Origin: Desulfobacteraceae bacterium
Lineage (GTDB): Bacteria > Desulfobacterota > Desulfobacteria > Desulfobacterales > Desulfobacteraceae
Direction of reading: 5' to 3'
DNA: 8,205 bases
Assembly (NCBI GenBank): GCA_015486915.1
Contig: WFQS01000287.1
Span: 1-8,205, forward strand
The position numbers and the translations under genes were made by a program. The first letter of the stretch is position 1. Each line of letters opens with the position of its first letter. The notes beneath the pieces were generated by a model. The model searched no databases, was not told the origin of the DNA, and saw nothing but the letters and a program-made list of their open reading frames with translations. Shown here in pieces: positions 1,761-7,250 of the stretch.

Positions 1761-1870
1761 AACGGCCATGAGGCCGAGCTGGACAGCACTACGGAGCCTC
1801 AAAAAATCAGAGATTTTGACGAACATAGAAAGAGTATTGGTTACTTTATTAAAAGTACGCTCTTTCTTAT
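1761..1870 (+). repeat. Structured repeat unit A (about 111 bp)
   Basis: Seen, in order: stem 1 CGGCC-ATGA-GGCCG (1763-1776); an alternative stem 2 in which GAGGC (1770-1774) pairs with GCCTC (1796-1800); stem 3 AAAATC-AGA-GATTTT (1803-1817); and stem 4 with outer AAAGAG (1829-1834) / CTCTTT (1860-1865) and inner TACTTT-ATTA-AAAGTA (1842-1857). Stems 1 and 2 share bases, so both cannot form together. The unit ends TTTCTTATAAA, as unit B does. Compared with B, stems 1, 3 and 4 differ in sequence but still pair, which suggests selection for structure. Family unknown; REP-like or a small structured RNA are both possible. Confidence 0.6.
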
Positions 1871-1980
1871 AAAACCGCCATGAGGCGGATCTGGATTGGT
1901 CCAGATTTGCCTCAAAGAATCAAAGATTCTGACAAAAAATGAAAGTTACACGTTGTTTCACAAATACTTTCTTATAAAAA
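1871..1980 (+). repeat. Structured repeat unit B (about 111 bp)
   Basis: Second tandem copy, 112 bases after unit A measured from GAGGC to GAGGC. Stem 1 is CCGCC-ATGA-GGCGG (1875-1888). Stem 2 is a long hairpin, 1882-1895 paired with 1900-1913: fourteen pairs counting two G-U, with a TTGG loop. Stem 3 is AGAATC-AAA-GATTCT (1916-1930). Stem 4 has outer GAAAGT (1941-1946) / ACTTTC (1966-1971) and an inner TTGT-TTC-ACAA (1953-1963). The unit stops just before the rhodanese Shine-Dalgarno sequence, so it would lie in that gene's 5' leader if transcription comes from upstream, and in the kinase remnant's 3' region otherwise. Confidence 0.62.
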
Positions 1981-3056: not shown

Positions 3057-3326
3057 TTATTCCAATAGGTCAGAATGAGTTCCCGTTCTTTCAAAAATTA
3101 TTTCAGCTTCTTTGATTTTGTAAATCAATAACCAATTTGGTTCAAGATGGCATTCTCTCCTGCCTTTGTAGTTACCTATCAATTGATGGTCTTTATAAAT
3201 TGGATTGAGTGGTTCACCATTCACAAGTTTTTGGATAACGACTTTCAATTTATTCTGTGATTTTTTACGTTTTTGTATCCTTTTGATATCTTTTGAAAAT
3301 TGTTTGGAATAGACTGGTATTAACAT
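3057..3326 (-). CDS. YafQ-family (RelE/ParE superfamily) toxin of a type II toxin-antitoxin system
   Basis: Seen: 89 residues, a usual length for the family. The pattern matches E. coli YafQ along its second half: K-D-H47-Q-L-x-G, G-R-R-E-C-H60-L-E-P, W65-L-L-I-Y-K, E-R-T-G-T-H84-S-D-L-L. Family knowledge: YafQ is a ribosome-dependent mRNA interferase whose active site uses H50, H63, D67, W68, H87 and F91. Those map here to H47, H60, N64, W65, H84 and L88, so the Asp is Asn (codon AAT at 3137-3135) and the Phe is Leu. Inference: the cytoplasmic toxin may be weakened or use a shifted mechanism, yet the frame is intact. It begins on the base right after the antitoxin TAA (ATGTAAATG arrangement), so translation should be coupled. 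The AGGG in the antitoxin's last codons may act as its Shine-Dalgarno. Repression would come through the antitoxin-bound operator upstream. Confidence 0.85.
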   Translation of the reverse strand: MLIPVYSKQFSKDIKRIQKRKKSQNKLKVVIQKLVNGEPLNPIYKDHQLIGNYKGRRECHLEPNWLLIYKIKEAEIIFERTGTHSDLLE

Positions 3327-3587
3327 TTACATCCCTAATTTTTCAAACATATCATCTACTGTCTCACAACGTATGAGATTTTTATTTGCATCTGTATCCT
3401 TAAAAACCCTTTCTGTTGTTTTGTTGGGAACAACGACATTAAAAGGTAATCCTTTTCTTAATTTTACCTGTCTATAAAACATTACAATTGCTTCGGTTGT
3501 AGAAATACCTAATTTTTTGAAAAGGTTTTCAACCTCTTTCTTAAGTTCAGGTTCAATTCTTGCTCTTATTGTTGCAGTCTTTGCCAT
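3327..3587 (-). CDS. DinJ/RelB-family antitoxin
   Basis: Seen: 86 residues. The N-terminal half is a ribbon-helix-helix type DNA-binding and dimerisation region (T-I-R-A-R-I-E-P-E-L at 6-15, then two helices with G-I-S-T-T-E-A-I). A K-G-L-P-F-N-V motif at 45-51 follows, as in DinJ. The C-terminal toxin-neutralising tail ends D-D-M-F-E-K-L-G-M (78-86), close to the D-D-L-F-D-K-L-G-I end of E. coli DinJ. Start choice: ATG 3587 has a near-perfect Shine-Dalgarno TAAGGAGGTGAT (3602-3591) and lies just after the predicted transcription start. The in-frame ATG at 3629 lies inside the promoter and is rejected. Family knowledge: the antitoxin neutralises the toxin and, alone or as a complex, represses its own operon. 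It is the first gene of a two-gene operon with the YafQ-type toxin. Confidence 0.87.
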   Translation of the reverse strand: MAKTATIRARIEPELKKEVENLFKKLGISTTEAIVMFYRQVKLRKGLPFNVVVPNKTTERVFKDTDANKNLIRCETVDDMFEKLGM

Positions 3588-3590
3588 AAA

Positions 3591-3602
3591 TATCACCTCC
3601 TT
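3591..3602 (-). promoter_or_regulatory. Near-perfect Shine-Dalgarno of the antitoxin gene
   Basis: TAAGGAGGTGAT on the minus strand is almost the full complement of the 16S rRNA 3' tail and lies four bases before ATG 3587. It settles the start codon and predicts strong translation of antitoxin relative to toxin. Confidence 0.8.
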
Positions 3603-3608
3603 ACAATC

Positions 3609-3637
3609 AAAATATCCCATATGGGCCACACTGTCAA
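3609..3637 (-). promoter_or_regulatory. Promoter and palindromic operator of the toxin-antitoxin operon
   Basis: Read on the minus strand: a perfect -35 box TTGACA (3637-3632), a 17-base spacer, and -10 TATTTT (3614-3609, 4 of 6 consensus). The spacer contains the 10-base perfect palindrome CCCATATGGG (3625-3616), the expected place for a ribbon-helix-helix antitoxin to block RNA polymerase. Transcription would start near 3602, just at the Shine-Dalgarno, giving an almost minimal leader. Confidence 0.7.
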
Positions 3638-3814: not shown

Positions 3815-3848
3815 CTGTAACGCTGTCCAGATCGGCCTCATGGCCGTT
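3815..3848 (-). repeat. Structured repeat unit D, truncated copy
   Basis: On the minus strand it reads stem 1 CGGCC-ATGA-GGCCG (3846-3833), then ATCTGGACAGCG (3832-3821). It resembles unit A over roughly its first 35 bases, including GGACAGC and a following TAC. The GCCTC partner of stem 2 and the later stems are absent, the sequence passing instead into the 9-bp inverted repeat. Its GAGGC starts at 3839, 111 bases after that of unit C. Confidence 0.5.
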
Positions 3849-3956
3849 TATATGAAACTCCTGTAAAATACCTTAAATTCTTAGAGTTGGCTACGCGCCT
3901 ACGGCCCATGTTTCGTTGAGAGGCCGTCTGAGAGAATTCAGATCCGCCTCTTGCCA
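3849..3956 (-). repeat. Structured repeat unit C, directly after the GTPase stop codon
   Basis: On the minus strand, GAGGC (3950-3946) pairs with GCCTC (3924-3920) and the inner TCTGA / TCAGA arms also pair, as in stem 2 of unit B. Stem 4 is kept as AACTC (3860-3856 on + coordinates) / GAGTT (3884-3888) with an inner TAAAA / TCTTA partial stem including one G-U. The unit shares AGAGGCGGATCTG with unit B near its start and ends TTTCATATAAA like units A and B. Stem 1 is lost (GGC-AAGA-GGC does not pair) and stem 3 is not evident. It begins within two bases of the GTPase stop, so it would be the first thing in that operon's 3' untranslated region. Confidence 0.52.
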
Positions 3957-3957
3957 G

Positions 3958-5382
3958 TTATATCAATTTTAAAAGTTCTTTTTTAACAAGATCCGTCATG
4001 ATTAAATTGATATCGTTTTTTTTATCTTTGTATAGCCCCTTGTTTTTGCCGTTGGAAAGGCTGAAAAAATCAGTGCATATTTTTTTTGCGTTTTCATCCC
4101 GGAAGGCGGCGGTCCCTTTTTTAAGATTTTTTTTAAGTTCAGAATCAATGTCCCTGGAGTAATCCCTGCGGGCATGTGCCCAGTTGATAATTGCCGAATA
4201 AAAAATAATTGCACGGTCAAGCAGAACATACATGAGCTGAATATCATTTGTGGGACCGACTCTGATCAGGTCTCTTCCAAGCCTTATTCCACGGATTTTC
4301 ATTCCGCTGATGTGCCTGCCTCCAAGCAGTGCGGACCCTGCTCCTGCAAGCCCTCCAATTGCGGAAAATACTCCAAAGGTAATGCCAGCCGCTGCAATAT
4401 CGATGGCAGCCCCAACAGTTCCCCCGGCAATTCCTGCTGCAATGGCCATTTCTCCCGGAGTCAGGCCTAAAAACTTCCAGGTCTTTTCACTGAAGAGATT
4501 CTCATTTAAAATGGAATGCGAAGGAAGCTCACAATGGAAAATATTGTGCTTAAAAAGTTTTTTTATTCTTTCCTGGGCTTTTTTTTCAATGGACTCAATT
4601 TTTTTCCTGTATATATGCCCGAGTTCCTCTTTTATTTCGTTAAAGGTGTCATTGTTCCTTATATTTTTCTCCACACTTAAGCCGATAATTTCTTCAAGCA
4701 TCTGAACGATGATTGCGGCACTTATTTCGGTTCGCTCAAGCCAGTCTTTTTTAAATGCTTCAATCACTTTGACAAGGGCAGGCTGCCAGTCCTGATCCAT
4801 GCTTTTTAAGCTTTCAAGAAGTTCCATGCGTTCCGTGTAAGTGGCAATTTTTGCGTTGAATAAACGGATGGAATTAAAATGTTTCCTGAATTCATTTTTC
4901 CATTTTAAAAGAAACGAAGAATCCGCATCCTTGCAGTTGATAACTGCCATGCGTGGACGTGCCGTGAGCCTGAGAATTTCCATTTCAGCCCTGTCATCAT
5001 TTCTCAACGGCCTTGAACCGTCAACCACGTAGATAATTCCCGCGCCTTTTGCAACCGGGCCAAACAGTTCACATTCATCCCTGAATTCAGGGTCATTTCT
5101 GTGATGGTCAATAAAAGCAGACAACATAAGTTCGTCGGGACCTGAATAGTTTCTCATCCATGCAAGGGTCTGCTTTGGACATTGAAAACCCGGTGTATCG
5201 GTAAATTTTATAATTTCTTCACCGTCAATTTTCACGGAAAAAGTCTGGCACTTAATTGTTTCCCCGGGAACAGGCCCGATTCTCACGGAATCATCTTCAG
5301 CAAGGGTTGAAACAACAGATGATTTTCCCTCATTCGGGTGTCCTAAAATGGCAAATTCCGGAATAAAATCTGATGATATCAT
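3958..5382 (-). CDS. DUF3482-type dynamin-like/Era-like GTPase, second gene of a DUF2868-DUF3482 operon
   Basis: Seen: 474 residues. The N-terminal G domain (about 8-190) has P-loop G14-H-P-N-E-G-K-S21 and G3 D62-T-P-G65. The G4 site is odd: I find N149-C-K-D152 rather than N-K-x-D. A lysine-rich, probably helical region (about 225-280) follows, then a glycine/alanine-rich hydrophobic stretch (about 310-354) with many small residues, able to insert in or lie on membranes, then a basic C-terminal tail. Family knowledge: DUF3482 GTPases are regularly found beside DUF2868 membrane proteins; neither has an established function. Inference: the membrane partner recruits this GTPase to the inner face of the membrane. 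Its ATG overlaps the stop of the upstream gene in ATGA, so the two are translationally coupled. A structured repeat lies immediately after its stop codon. Confidence 0.83.
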   Translation of the reverse strand: MISSDFIPEFAILGHPNEGKSSVVSTLAEDDSVRIGPVPGETIKCQTFSVKIDGEEIIKFTDTPGFQCPKQTLAWMRNYSGPDELMLSAFIDHHRNDPEFRDECELFGPVAKGAGIIYVVDGSRPLRNDDRAEMEILRLTARPRMAVINCKDADSSFLLKWKNEFRKHFNSIRLFNAKIATYTERMELLESLKSMDQDWQPALVKVIEAFKKDWLERTEISAAIIVQMLEEIIGLSVEKNIRNNDTFNEIKEELGHIYRKKIESIEKKAQERIKKLFKHNIFHCELPSHSILNENLFSEKTWKFLGLTPGEMAIAAGIAGGTVGAAIDIAAAGITFGVFSAIGGLAGAGSALLGGRHISGMKIRGIRLGRDLIRVGPTNDIQLMYVLLDRAIIFYSAIINWAHARRDYSRDIDSELKKNLKKGTAAFRDENAKKICTDFFSLSNGKNKGLYKDKKNDINLIMTDLVKKELLKLI

Positions 5383-7250
5383 AAAGCTGTTTCCACAAGG
5401 GTTTCGATTTGGATATAAGGATCGCCAAGACCTTTTATTTTCATGTTCCAGATTTTTAAATCCATTTCCTTAACAGGAGTAAAAATTGTTGTTTTACAGG
5501 GTTTTCCAATAAGCGTAATAATCAATGGCATCTCCTTTTCTCCTGTTTTCCTGATATTTTTGATAAATTTCAGAATTTCTCTGATCGGCGGCTGCCAGGC
5601 TTCATAAAGCAGAATAAATCCTTGGGAATTTTCTTTTTCATTTTCTGAAATAATTTTTTTAACCGCTTCAAGGTCATGATTAAAATTAATACCGACCCTT
5701 TTTATACCATTAAGATAACAGCCGCTGGTGTTTTTCACAATGAGTTTTAATTGCTCAAAATCACATTGATCATAAATATCATCGGGGATAAGGGCTGTAA
5801 ATCCAACGACCGCTTTACCGGTTAATTTGAGACTGTTTTCTGTGAAATCTGAAAATGTGGATTCTGAAAATGTGGATTCTGAAAATTTGTCAATATCCAT
5901 TGGATTTTGTAAATCATCAAAAGAATTCTGCAAATCACGGGAAAAAGACGGTTTAACAGATCCAGGAAAATTTTCAGTATCACAGGGACCTGGTGTTGAA
6001 TCAAGTGATACACCGGGAAAAAGCATGCGGCGCATCAGTTTTGAACAGTCACCATGGTTTAATTTCTGGCGGTTAAGATTTCTTTTTAAACAGATATTTG
6101 CTGAAACAAAGAGAATAAATCTTGGTAAAAAGCCGTAAAATAATACGGTAAAGCATAAAAAAGGCCACCATGATACAAGGTTTGCCGTAGTTAAATGTAA
6201 TATTCCGTCCTTTAAAATCATTCTGCTGCCCTGAATCTCGGCAGGACCGGGAAAAGCTAAATCCGGCGGGACAAACCATGACCATGGAGATGCAATCAAG
6301 GAAACAATTTTGTAAACGTTATGTGCGTTCACCTGAACCGTTGACTGCCAGCCAAAGGCTGTATCAAAAAACATGACATGAAACAGGGTGGAACCGAGAA
6401 CACCGACATTAAATCCCATGGCAAACAGCTGGAATAAGATAAAAATGGGCCAGAAAAATAAAAATCCGTAAACAATGTGTCCTTCACGTATGATACCGAG
6501 TAAGGTAAGTATTTTTCCCCTGTCAACACCTGCTATTTTTCCAAAAATTTTCTTTTCGGACCAGAGCATGAACTTTTCAACACAAACACCTGTAAGGGCA
6601 TAGATTCCAAACTGTTTCTTACTGATGATATTTTGTCTTGTTAAAAAAAAGGATAAAAACAGAATTGTAAGAAGAAGAATTTGCGGTAAAACCGTGATGG
6701 CAATAAAATAAGCAACATTAAGGGGATTTGTACCTGTATATGAAAAAAAAGAGGTGCACAGGGAAACACCTGCAAGAATGCCAAGGATTAAAAAAAGTAT
6801 TTTTAATATTTTGTGTGTCTCTTTATAAAAGCTTCCGGGAAACAGAAAAGGATGTGATATTTCAGATTTTACCTTTGCCCGCATTGCATGAAGCCACAGT
6901 CTTATTATGTTTTTTCTGAACTTTTCAATTGTTGTTCTGTCATCTGTTGTTGTTCTGTCATCATTTTTTGTTCTCTCATCTTTTTTTCCGTTTTTTAGAG
7001 ATCCGGTTCCAGGTCTTTTCTTCAAAGAATTTGAATTATTTTCAATATCACCAGGCAGAACCTGATAATTTTTTTTTAAACGGGCATCTTTATTAAATAC
7101 AGGTTCGATATTCAATGCAGGTTCGATGCAATCAAGATAAATTTTTCGATCTCTTTTTTTTAAATATGTCTGATCAGTCTGGTTAAGATCCTTTTTAAAA
7201 AAATATTCAAGATCAATGATATCACTGATTGTCCATTTTAACTGGCTCAT
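5379..7250 (-). CDS. DUF2868-type multi-pass membrane protein, partner of the GTPase
   Basis: Seen: 623 residues. The N-terminal W-T-I-S-D-I-I-D-L-E-Y-F (6-17) is typical of the family. A variable charged linker (about 60-110) follows, then hydrophobic segments at about 147-170, 177-203, 258-282 and 361-385, probably four membrane spans. A second variable Ser/Asp/Phe-rich linker (about 410-472) leads to a cytoplasmic-type C-terminal domain (about 475-620), with F-I-L-L-Y-E-A-W-Q-P-P-I-R-E at 545-558 and G-D-P-Y-I-Q-I-E near 609-616. Both linkers contain short in-frame tandem repeats. Family knowledge: DUF2868 proteins occur next to DUF3482 GTPases; function unknown. Start: ATG 7250 has only a weak upstream GGGC but puts the conserved W-x-x-S-D motif at its usual place. 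It is first of the two-gene operon, with 165 bp to the regulator gene upstream on the same strand. No clear promoter was found. Confidence 0.82.
   Translation of the reverse strand: MSQLKWTISDIIDLEYFFKKDLNQTDQTYLKKRDRKIYLDCIEPALNIEPVFNKDARLKKNYQVLPGDIENNSNSLKKRPGTGSLKNGKKDERTKNDDRTTTDDRTTIEKFRKNIIRLWLHAMRAKVKSEISHPFLFPGSFYKETHKILKILFLILGILAGVSLCTSFFSYTGTNPLNVAYFIAITVLPQILLLTILFLSFFLTRQNIISKKQFGIYALTGVCVEKFMLWSEKKIFGKIAGVDRGKILTLLGIIREGHIVYGFLFFWPIFILFQLFAMGFNVGVLGSTLFHVMFFDTAFGWQSTVQVNAHNVYKIVSLIASPWSWFVPPDLAFPGPAEIQGSRMILKDGILHLTTANLVSWWPFLCFTVLFYGFLPRFILFVSANICLKRNLNRQKLNHGDCSKLMRRMLFPGVSLDSTPGPCDTENFPGSVKPSFSRDLQNSFDDLQNPMDIDKFSESTFSESTFSDFTENSLKLTGKAVVGFTALIPDDIYDQCDFEQLKLIVKNTSGCYLNGIKRVGINFNHDLEAVKKIISENEKENSQGFILLYEAWQPPIREILKFIKNIRKTGEKEMPLIITLIGKPCKTTIFTPVKEMDLKIWNMKIKGLGDPYIQIETLVETAL
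5848..5887. repeat. In-frame 15-bp tandem repeat in the membrane-protein gene
   Basis: TCTGAAAATGTGGAT occurs at 5848-5862 and 5863-5877, with a partial third copy from 5878. On the coding (minus) strand it encodes the 5-residue unit F-S-E-S-T within the linker before the C-terminal domain (around residues 456-467). The period is a multiple of three, so copy changes alter linker length without a frameshift. Confidence 0.75.
6931..6980. repeat. In-frame 18-bp tandem repeat in the membrane-protein gene
   Basis: Three copies of a GTTGTTCTGTCATC-type unit begin at 6931, 6949 and 6967 (the third diverged). On the coding strand they encode three 6-residue units of the form D-x-R-T-x-x (about residues 91-108) in the linker between the N-terminal region and the first membrane span. 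Confidence 0.72.

Follow-up and report, generated by a model that had tools for sequence, protein, structure and literature searches.

Copies of a short repeat found in the window (the whole stretch of 8,205 nucleotides from a Desulfobacteraceae bacterium that was analysed here) very probably represent a non-autonomous mobile DNA element of about 90–112 bp that was spread among the relatives of the host by a trans-acting enzyme. The element has fixed ends, AAC on the left and TTTCATATAA or TTTCTTATAA on the right. Many dispersed copies were detected, including exact 90-bp copies in different flanks; the structure of the copies covaries, their preferred left flank is AAT or AAG, nothing indicates that a longer target was copied, and unlike copies are stacked in one orientation. 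Taken together, these observations point to mobility of the copies. The family is large and has no Rfam entry, and no earlier description of it was found in the open papers searched; the passages of PMC2702500 on 2357 exact repeats of at least 50 bp in one genome do not describe the element. It may explain part of the repeat load and of the broken assemblies of such genomes.

The window contains three full copies and one truncated copy, arranged as two head-to-tail arrays:

Positions 1761–1872, plus strand: unit A, full copy of 112 bp with the ends AAC...TTTCTTATAA and an optional small hairpin
Positions 1873–1977, plus strand: unit B, full copy of 105 bp, directly head-to-tail with unit A
Positions 3848–3959, minus strand: unit D, full copy of 112 bp with a different internal insertion
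Positions about 3815–3848, minus strand: unit C, truncated copy consisting of the left part only, joined head-to-tail to unit D

The core motif GCCATGAGGCSGAKCTGGA, allowing up to 3 mismatches, matched four times in the window and in none of 200 shuffles. A covariance model (R2) was built from an alignment of 28 copies of three genomes (A1, see below). With default filters, R2 matched unit B (1870–1977; 56.8 bits, E 3e-10) and unit D (3848–3962; 45.5 bits, E 6.8e-8), and unit A (1758–1854; 41.4 bits, E 2e-8) was reported only with the covariance-search filters off, the default filters giving no match there. Unit B belongs to a different subfamily from unit A, since the letters of stem 2 and of the 3′ stem differ. 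A truncated copy matching unit C was found at the same place in a related genome, G001.

All stems listed for units A and B by an initial annotation, made from the window alone, were recovered in the sequence:

Positions 1763–1776, plus strand: stem 1 of unit A, CGGCC (1763–1767) pairing with GGCCG (1772–1776) around ATGA
Positions 1875–1888, plus strand: stem 1 of unit B, CCGCC (1875–1879) pairing with GGCGG (1884–1888) around ATGA
Positions 1769–1801, plus strand: stem 2 of unit A, TGAGGC (1769–1774) pairing with GCCTCA (1796–1801), its GGC common to stem 1
Positions 1881–1914, plus strand: stem 2 of unit B, TGAGGC (1881–1886) pairing with GCCTCA (1909–1914)
Positions 1803–1817, plus strand: optional inserted hairpin of unit A, AAAATC/GATTTT
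Positions 1916–1930, plus strand: optional inserted hairpin of unit B, AGAATC/GATTCT
Positions 1828–1866, plus strand: 3′ stem of unit A, GAAAGAG (1828–1834) pairing with CTCTTTC (1860–1866)
Positions 1941–1971, plus strand: 3′ stem of unit B, GAAAGT (1941–1946) pairing with ACTTTC (1966–1971)

The hairpin that had been counted as the third of four stems is present in both units, but it is an optional insertion and not a core part: its pattern was found in 13 of 126 distinct full-length copies of G001, 90 of which are no longer than 104 nt. Like a second optional inner module, a block resembling GGGTCGAAGACGCGAAGCC, this small hairpin (AGAATC/GATTCT) is carried by some copies only; examples are the G001 copies L035:3727–3841 and L116:5005–5134, as well as unit D of the window. 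Predicted RNA folding of unit A gave a z-score of -2.32, with 6 of 200 shuffles folding as well, and that of unit B a z-score of -4.93, with none of 200; the minus strand of the element folds as well as the plus strand.

The two copies of the window had been read as selected for structure rather than for sequence. Covariation between two copies is only suggestive, and it was made firm by two wider alignments of copies chosen for variety: A1, and A2 with 38 copies (37 distinct) from 13 genomes, in which L147, L152, L157 and L161 were left out among the 30 loci from the re-searched genomes. RNAalifold, unaided, recovered stem 1 and the 3′ stem on both alignments. Within A2, 95.7% of the cells of the structure were paired compared to 80.1% in shuffles, and the covariation score was 0.350 compared to 0.066 for shuffled alignments and at most 0.096 when the structure was slid along the alignment. 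The stem-1 pair 7–18 occurred in A2 as TA (12 copies), GC (10), CG (9) and AT (6), with no broken pair. The same pair was Watson-Crick in 208 of 293 copies from three genomes (88 expected; largest shuffle 114), a set that was gathered by a motif search leaving pair 7–18 free and in which some members may be chance matches. Base changes were not found to break the pairing as often as they keep it. Base pairing, and not the exact letters, is what evolution keeps in this element; four Watson-Crick types at one pair across 13 genomes make it an uncommon natural example of selection on structure in apparently mobile DNA.

Stem 2 begins at the T of CAT and ends at the A preceding CAAC. In 112 copies it formed on average 5.35 of 6 pairs, compared to 4.30 in shuffles that do not preserve relatedness (largest shuffle 4.54), with one pair fixed by the search; on a plain alignment test it was slightly above shuffles (88.1% compared to 85.1% of cells). 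The proposal of two mutually exclusive stems that share GGC was supported, both stems covarying. The arms of stem 2 differ by subfamily: TGAGGC/GCCTCA, TGGCAG/CTGCCA, TGATGC/GCATCA, TGGGC/GCCCA and TGTCC/GGACA. Stem 2 is retained in three subfamilies, whose left ends are AACATACA, AACNGCCATGATGC and AACCCCCATGTCC; judged from their letters, stem 1 cannot form in them. Stem 2 is therefore the feature of wider occurrence, and stem 1 belongs to the main family. Subfamilies lacking stem 1 were seen at L012:2854, L126:5214, L049:222 and L001:1956 (e.g., TGTCC-TTCG-GGACA), and the TGATGC/GCATCA subfamily is present in both G001 and G005.

Among 1172 cells of the fixed stem-1 pairs in the 293 copies, 1001 were unchanged, 46 were G.T, 51 A.C, 6 compensated and 68 otherwise broken. 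Damaged stem-1 pairs in these copies thus showed no preference for wobble pairs (46 G.T compared to 51 A.C), which suggests that pairing may not be maintained after insertion and that selection would act at the time of copying.

When genome contigs were scanned for the exact pattern, 53 stretches were recovered, of which 48 were from the draft genome of Desulfobacteraceae S145_18 (G001) and two from Desulfobacterales GB_4872_bin16; the remaining three, one each from Tautonia, Bacteroidales and Phocaeicola, were set aside as chance matches or single stray copies (25 matches compared to 8 reversed in the Bacteroidales genome G003). G001 is close to the organism of the window (rhodanese gene 95%, two blocks 93.5% and 98%) and contained 554 core-motif matches with up to 3 mismatches compared to 6 for the reversed control; the second genome, G002, contained 46 compared to none reversed. 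The covariance search that the initial annotation had proposed did find further copies in related genomes, R2 matching 26 of 78 genomes (G001 and its relatives) at E <= 1e-4, with G001 counted among the 26. When ten of these were searched again at E <= 1e-5, all ten matched, with from at least 9 to at least 106 matches each, all such counts per genome being lower bounds. Arrays of three and two copies were also found in G049 and G045.

Phage and plasmid records gave only matches of 26–27 bases at 10–11% of the query and, in further searches, none; viral contigs gave none in one search and, in another, five matches that all came without the other parts of the element. The initial annotation had recognised no known family, and the Rfam searches agree with this: no match was obtained at E <= 1 in the window, and seven other loci gave only two sub-threshold matches, both outside the element. 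A sub-threshold match to the Termite-leu RNA family was located at L144:1662–1749 (26.6 bits; cut-off 51), outside the element. A regulator locus was found twice in G018 and once in G040 (L152, L164, and L165), each time with the element at 1501–1597 and 92–95% identity; the shared position suggests that some copies are old and have been retained.

The ends of the element were defined on the single-contig chromosome G035, in which many R2 matches had identical scores. Twenty regions of equal or near-equal score were found to carry the same or nearly the same 90-bp sequence within unlike flanks. Across the whole genome 71 left ends and 69 right ends were found, of which 68 pair, 67 at 90 bp and one at 91 bp. 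Each of the three left ends that lack a partner runs on into an altered or truncated copy, and the lone right end without one is part of a full copy whose left part has changed. With 68 of the 71 left ends paired at 90–91 bp, G035 thus yielded no longer, gene-bearing version that shares these ends, up to 3 mismatches being allowed. No long autonomous version was recognised in 0.78 Mb of G001 either; three long candidates there (486, 4428, and 4471 bp) each carry two to six core motifs of their own.

The stretches fetched from G035 (the 20 regions of equal or near-equal score and others chosen because an end was variant or unpaired) cover 44 of the 71 left ends. For 41 of these the right end was present too, and all 41 copies were exactly 90 bp long within different flanks. 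Their left flank was AAT in 30, AAG in 7 and another triplet in 4, with pyrimidines further to the left, and the first base of the right flank was A in 39 of the 41. At the seven AAG sites the right end read ATATAA in six and ATCGAC in one, and this retention of ATATAA shows that the base at -1 is not copied there. Left-flank 3-mers recurred on the right in 6 of the 41 copies (5.2 expected) and 4-mers in none, so that no copied flank of 3 bp or more was seen above chance. A 2-bp AA duplication at insertion is possible. ATAA stood at both borders in 32 of the 41 copies, and for these, taken alone, a duplication of a strongly preferred ATAA is possible as well. Among 97 solitary copies of G001, G002 and G008 no consistent target duplication was found, the best shift reaching z 3.5 among many tried. 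A search with the joined flanks of 158 copies revealed no empty site, only tandem neighbours appearing among the matches listed. A/T tracts surround the copies, the left flank being rich in pyrimidines and the right flank in A.

Copies that lie within 240 bp of each other were on the same strand in 51 of 56 cases, with five on opposite strands, and 47 of the 51 same-strand neighbours were spaced by 87–127 bp, i.e., joined directly or nearly so. The two members of 46 tandem pairs of G001 were no more alike than random pairs (similarity 0.55 compared to 0.57), so the stacks are not the outcome of copies simply duplicated in place. It seems instead that a new copy inserts, in one orientation, at the right-hand end of a resident one; the A–B and D–C pairs of the window are examples of such stacking.

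We propose that the element forms two hairpins on one strand and that this folded single strand, more likely of DNA than of RNA, would be recognised by the enzyme. While the strand is cleaved or transferred, its left end could alternate between stem 1 and stem 2, and the A+T-rich right end of a resident copy may act as the target for the next insertion. With its fixed ends, ordered hairpins and conserved CAACAAA linker, the element is like the ends of IS200/IS605 elements or REPINs (compare the description of REPINs in PMC6006769). As in IS200/IS605 ends and their non-autonomous derivatives, there are fixed left and right ends with a hairpin each, a preferred short sequence in the left flank and orientation-specific stacking. 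The element differs from them in that no longer version with its ends was found in G035 and no bias between replication arms was seen, such a bias being what insertion into the lagging strand would predict. Strand counts by replication arm for the 71 G035 copies were 17/17 and 20/17, the position of the origin being assumed, and no arm bias was seen in four genomes among the top matches listed. Thus, the design is near that of IS200/IS605 ends and REPINs, but a guide tag, an arm bias and a firm tie to a Y1 transposase were not found, which leads us to favour trans-mobilisation of a folded strand. As a tentative first guess, somewhat doubtful in our view, the mobiliser may be a single-strand (HUH-type) transposase. 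The element might even represent a new class of trans-mobilised hairpins, a possibility that we hold only tentatively, defined by two ordered hairpins and not by sequence. Its left end would then switch between the two mutually exclusive stems during transfer, it would insert preferentially, in one orientation, at the right end of resident copies, and its enzyme would fall outside the REP/RAYT and IS200/IS605 pairings known so far. The element offers a testable system for finding its mobiliser.

A population of REPs or REPINs mobilised by a RAYT (TnpA_REP), or of repeats derived from another Y1 transposon, would share much with the element: like REPs and REPINs, it is short, largely intergenic, of high copy number and hairpin-forming, and in its best reading it is mobilised in trans without a long target duplication. 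In this respect the earlier suggestion of a REP-like DNA element holds as far as a dispersed hairpin repeat is concerned. However, PMC6006769 defines REPs and REPINs by a guide of four nucleotides, such as GTAG, at the foot of the hairpin on its 5′ side, and in A1 and A2 neither stem 2 nor the 3′ stem has a GTAG/CGTC tag at that place. The element also differs in having two hairpins in a fixed order, in stacking unlike copies head-to-tail and in showing no firm tie to a RAYT or other tyrosine transposase.

The genes for such enzymes gave a mixed picture. Y1_Tnp genes were found in 67 of the 78 genomes, but none was detected in G008, a 1.9-Mb draft with at least 74 copies of the element. G001 encodes a RAYT-like Y1 protein of 265 aa (NCBIfam NF047646, 63.3 bits, below the cut-off of 80), whose gene (L057) has one copy of the element, about 1 kb off, and is not flanked by copies. 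In four of 20 fetched Y1-gene regions (L168, L169, L173, and L181), these being part of the Y1 genes of each genome, R2 detected five elements 0.2–0.7 kb from the Y1 gene. This proximity may be more than an even spread would give and would then favour mobilisation by a Y1 enzyme; against it, the side of the gene on which the element is found varies among the four regions, and detailed comparison of one region showed the insertion sequence to be a separate unit of 591 bp, about 325 bp from the element. We regard a REP/RAYT or other Y1-derived origin as unlikely.

A MITE of an ordinary double-strand (DDE) transposase would likewise be short and non-coding, with many near-identical copies and fixed ends, and the A+T-rich target agrees with such an origin, as does the ATAA found at each border of 32 of the 41 copies. 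The ends of the element in A1 and A2 (AACNGCC... and ...TTTCATATAA) nevertheless share only TATAA/TTATA and no longer terminal inverted repeat, copied flanks of 3 bp or more were not above chance in the 41 G035 copies, and covarying internal hairpins and same-strand tandems of unlike copies would not be expected, which makes this origin quite unlikely. The MITEs Correia/NEMIS and RUP are about 100 bp long, non-coding, dispersed and foldable. The element resembles them in all these respects, but it lacks genuine terminal inverted repeats and showed no TA duplication. BOX and ERIC are modular or foldable intergenic repeats of about 100–150 bp, some with optional inner modules; the element shares this modular or foldable design and differs in host group. 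Integron attC sites have self-complementary ends, RYYYAAC...GTTRRRY. An attC site was rejected here, as the ends read in A1 and A2 are not complementary beyond TATAA.

Copying through an RNA intermediate by a reverse transcriptase, as in a bacterial SINE-like repeat, would fit the covarying hairpins, the pyrimidine-rich left and A-rich right flanks and the lack of a tie to a DNA transposase, but both strands fold equally well, and we consider it improbable. A structural or terminator-like repeat that is maintained by the host and spreads mainly by gene conversion is very doubtful: exact 90-bp copies in different flanks need insertion. The hairpins, the A/T tracts around the copies and the position of the copies relative to genes would otherwise be consistent with it, 139 of 233 copies of G001 lying wholly between predicted ORFs and 42 more overlapping one by less than half.

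Gene contexts were taken from simple ORF calls, and copies were included when an ORF was present on each side in the fetched stretch. With 54 copies set aside because a predicted ORF covers more than half of their length (52 from G001, two from G008), both flanking genes were sense compared to both antisense in 43 and 43 cases in G001, 18 and 20 in G008 and 1 and 4 in G002, so that no clear strand preference relative to genes was found in these three genomes. In a small sample of 20 copies of G035, eight had both genes sense and three both antisense, seven lay between divergent or convergent genes and two inside ORFs. The suggestion that each unit acts as an attenuator or riboswitch expression platform, i.e., a cis-acting RNA switch, was accordingly not upheld: the two mutually exclusive, covarying stems sharing GGC and the eight to three ratio among the few intergenic copies of G035 (18) speak for it, but the equal numbers of sense and antisense copies in G001 and G008, the hundreds of copies in one genome (G001), the damaged stem-1 pairs without wobble preference and the lack of an Rfam match make it highly improbable.

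Elsewhere in the window, a RelB-type antitoxin and YafQ/RelE-type toxin pair is located between the two repeat arrays (3057–3629, minus strand). In G001 a MobB-type gene (PF03205; L055:3718–4200) is present between the rhodanese gene and the toxin-antitoxin pair; its sole remnant in the window is a 54-bp match at 2802–2855, and the MobB-type stretch therefore seems to have been lost in the lineage of the window. In the gene at 934–1662 the end of a kinase domain is accompanied by a response-regulator domain, and since the similarity to G001 stops at 926, this gene looks truncated or rearranged. It is overlapped by a short ORF (803–1030) whose start, judged by eye, is lipoprotein-like. Adjacent GTPase/DUF3482 and DUF2868 genes occupy 3958–7250 on the minus strand.
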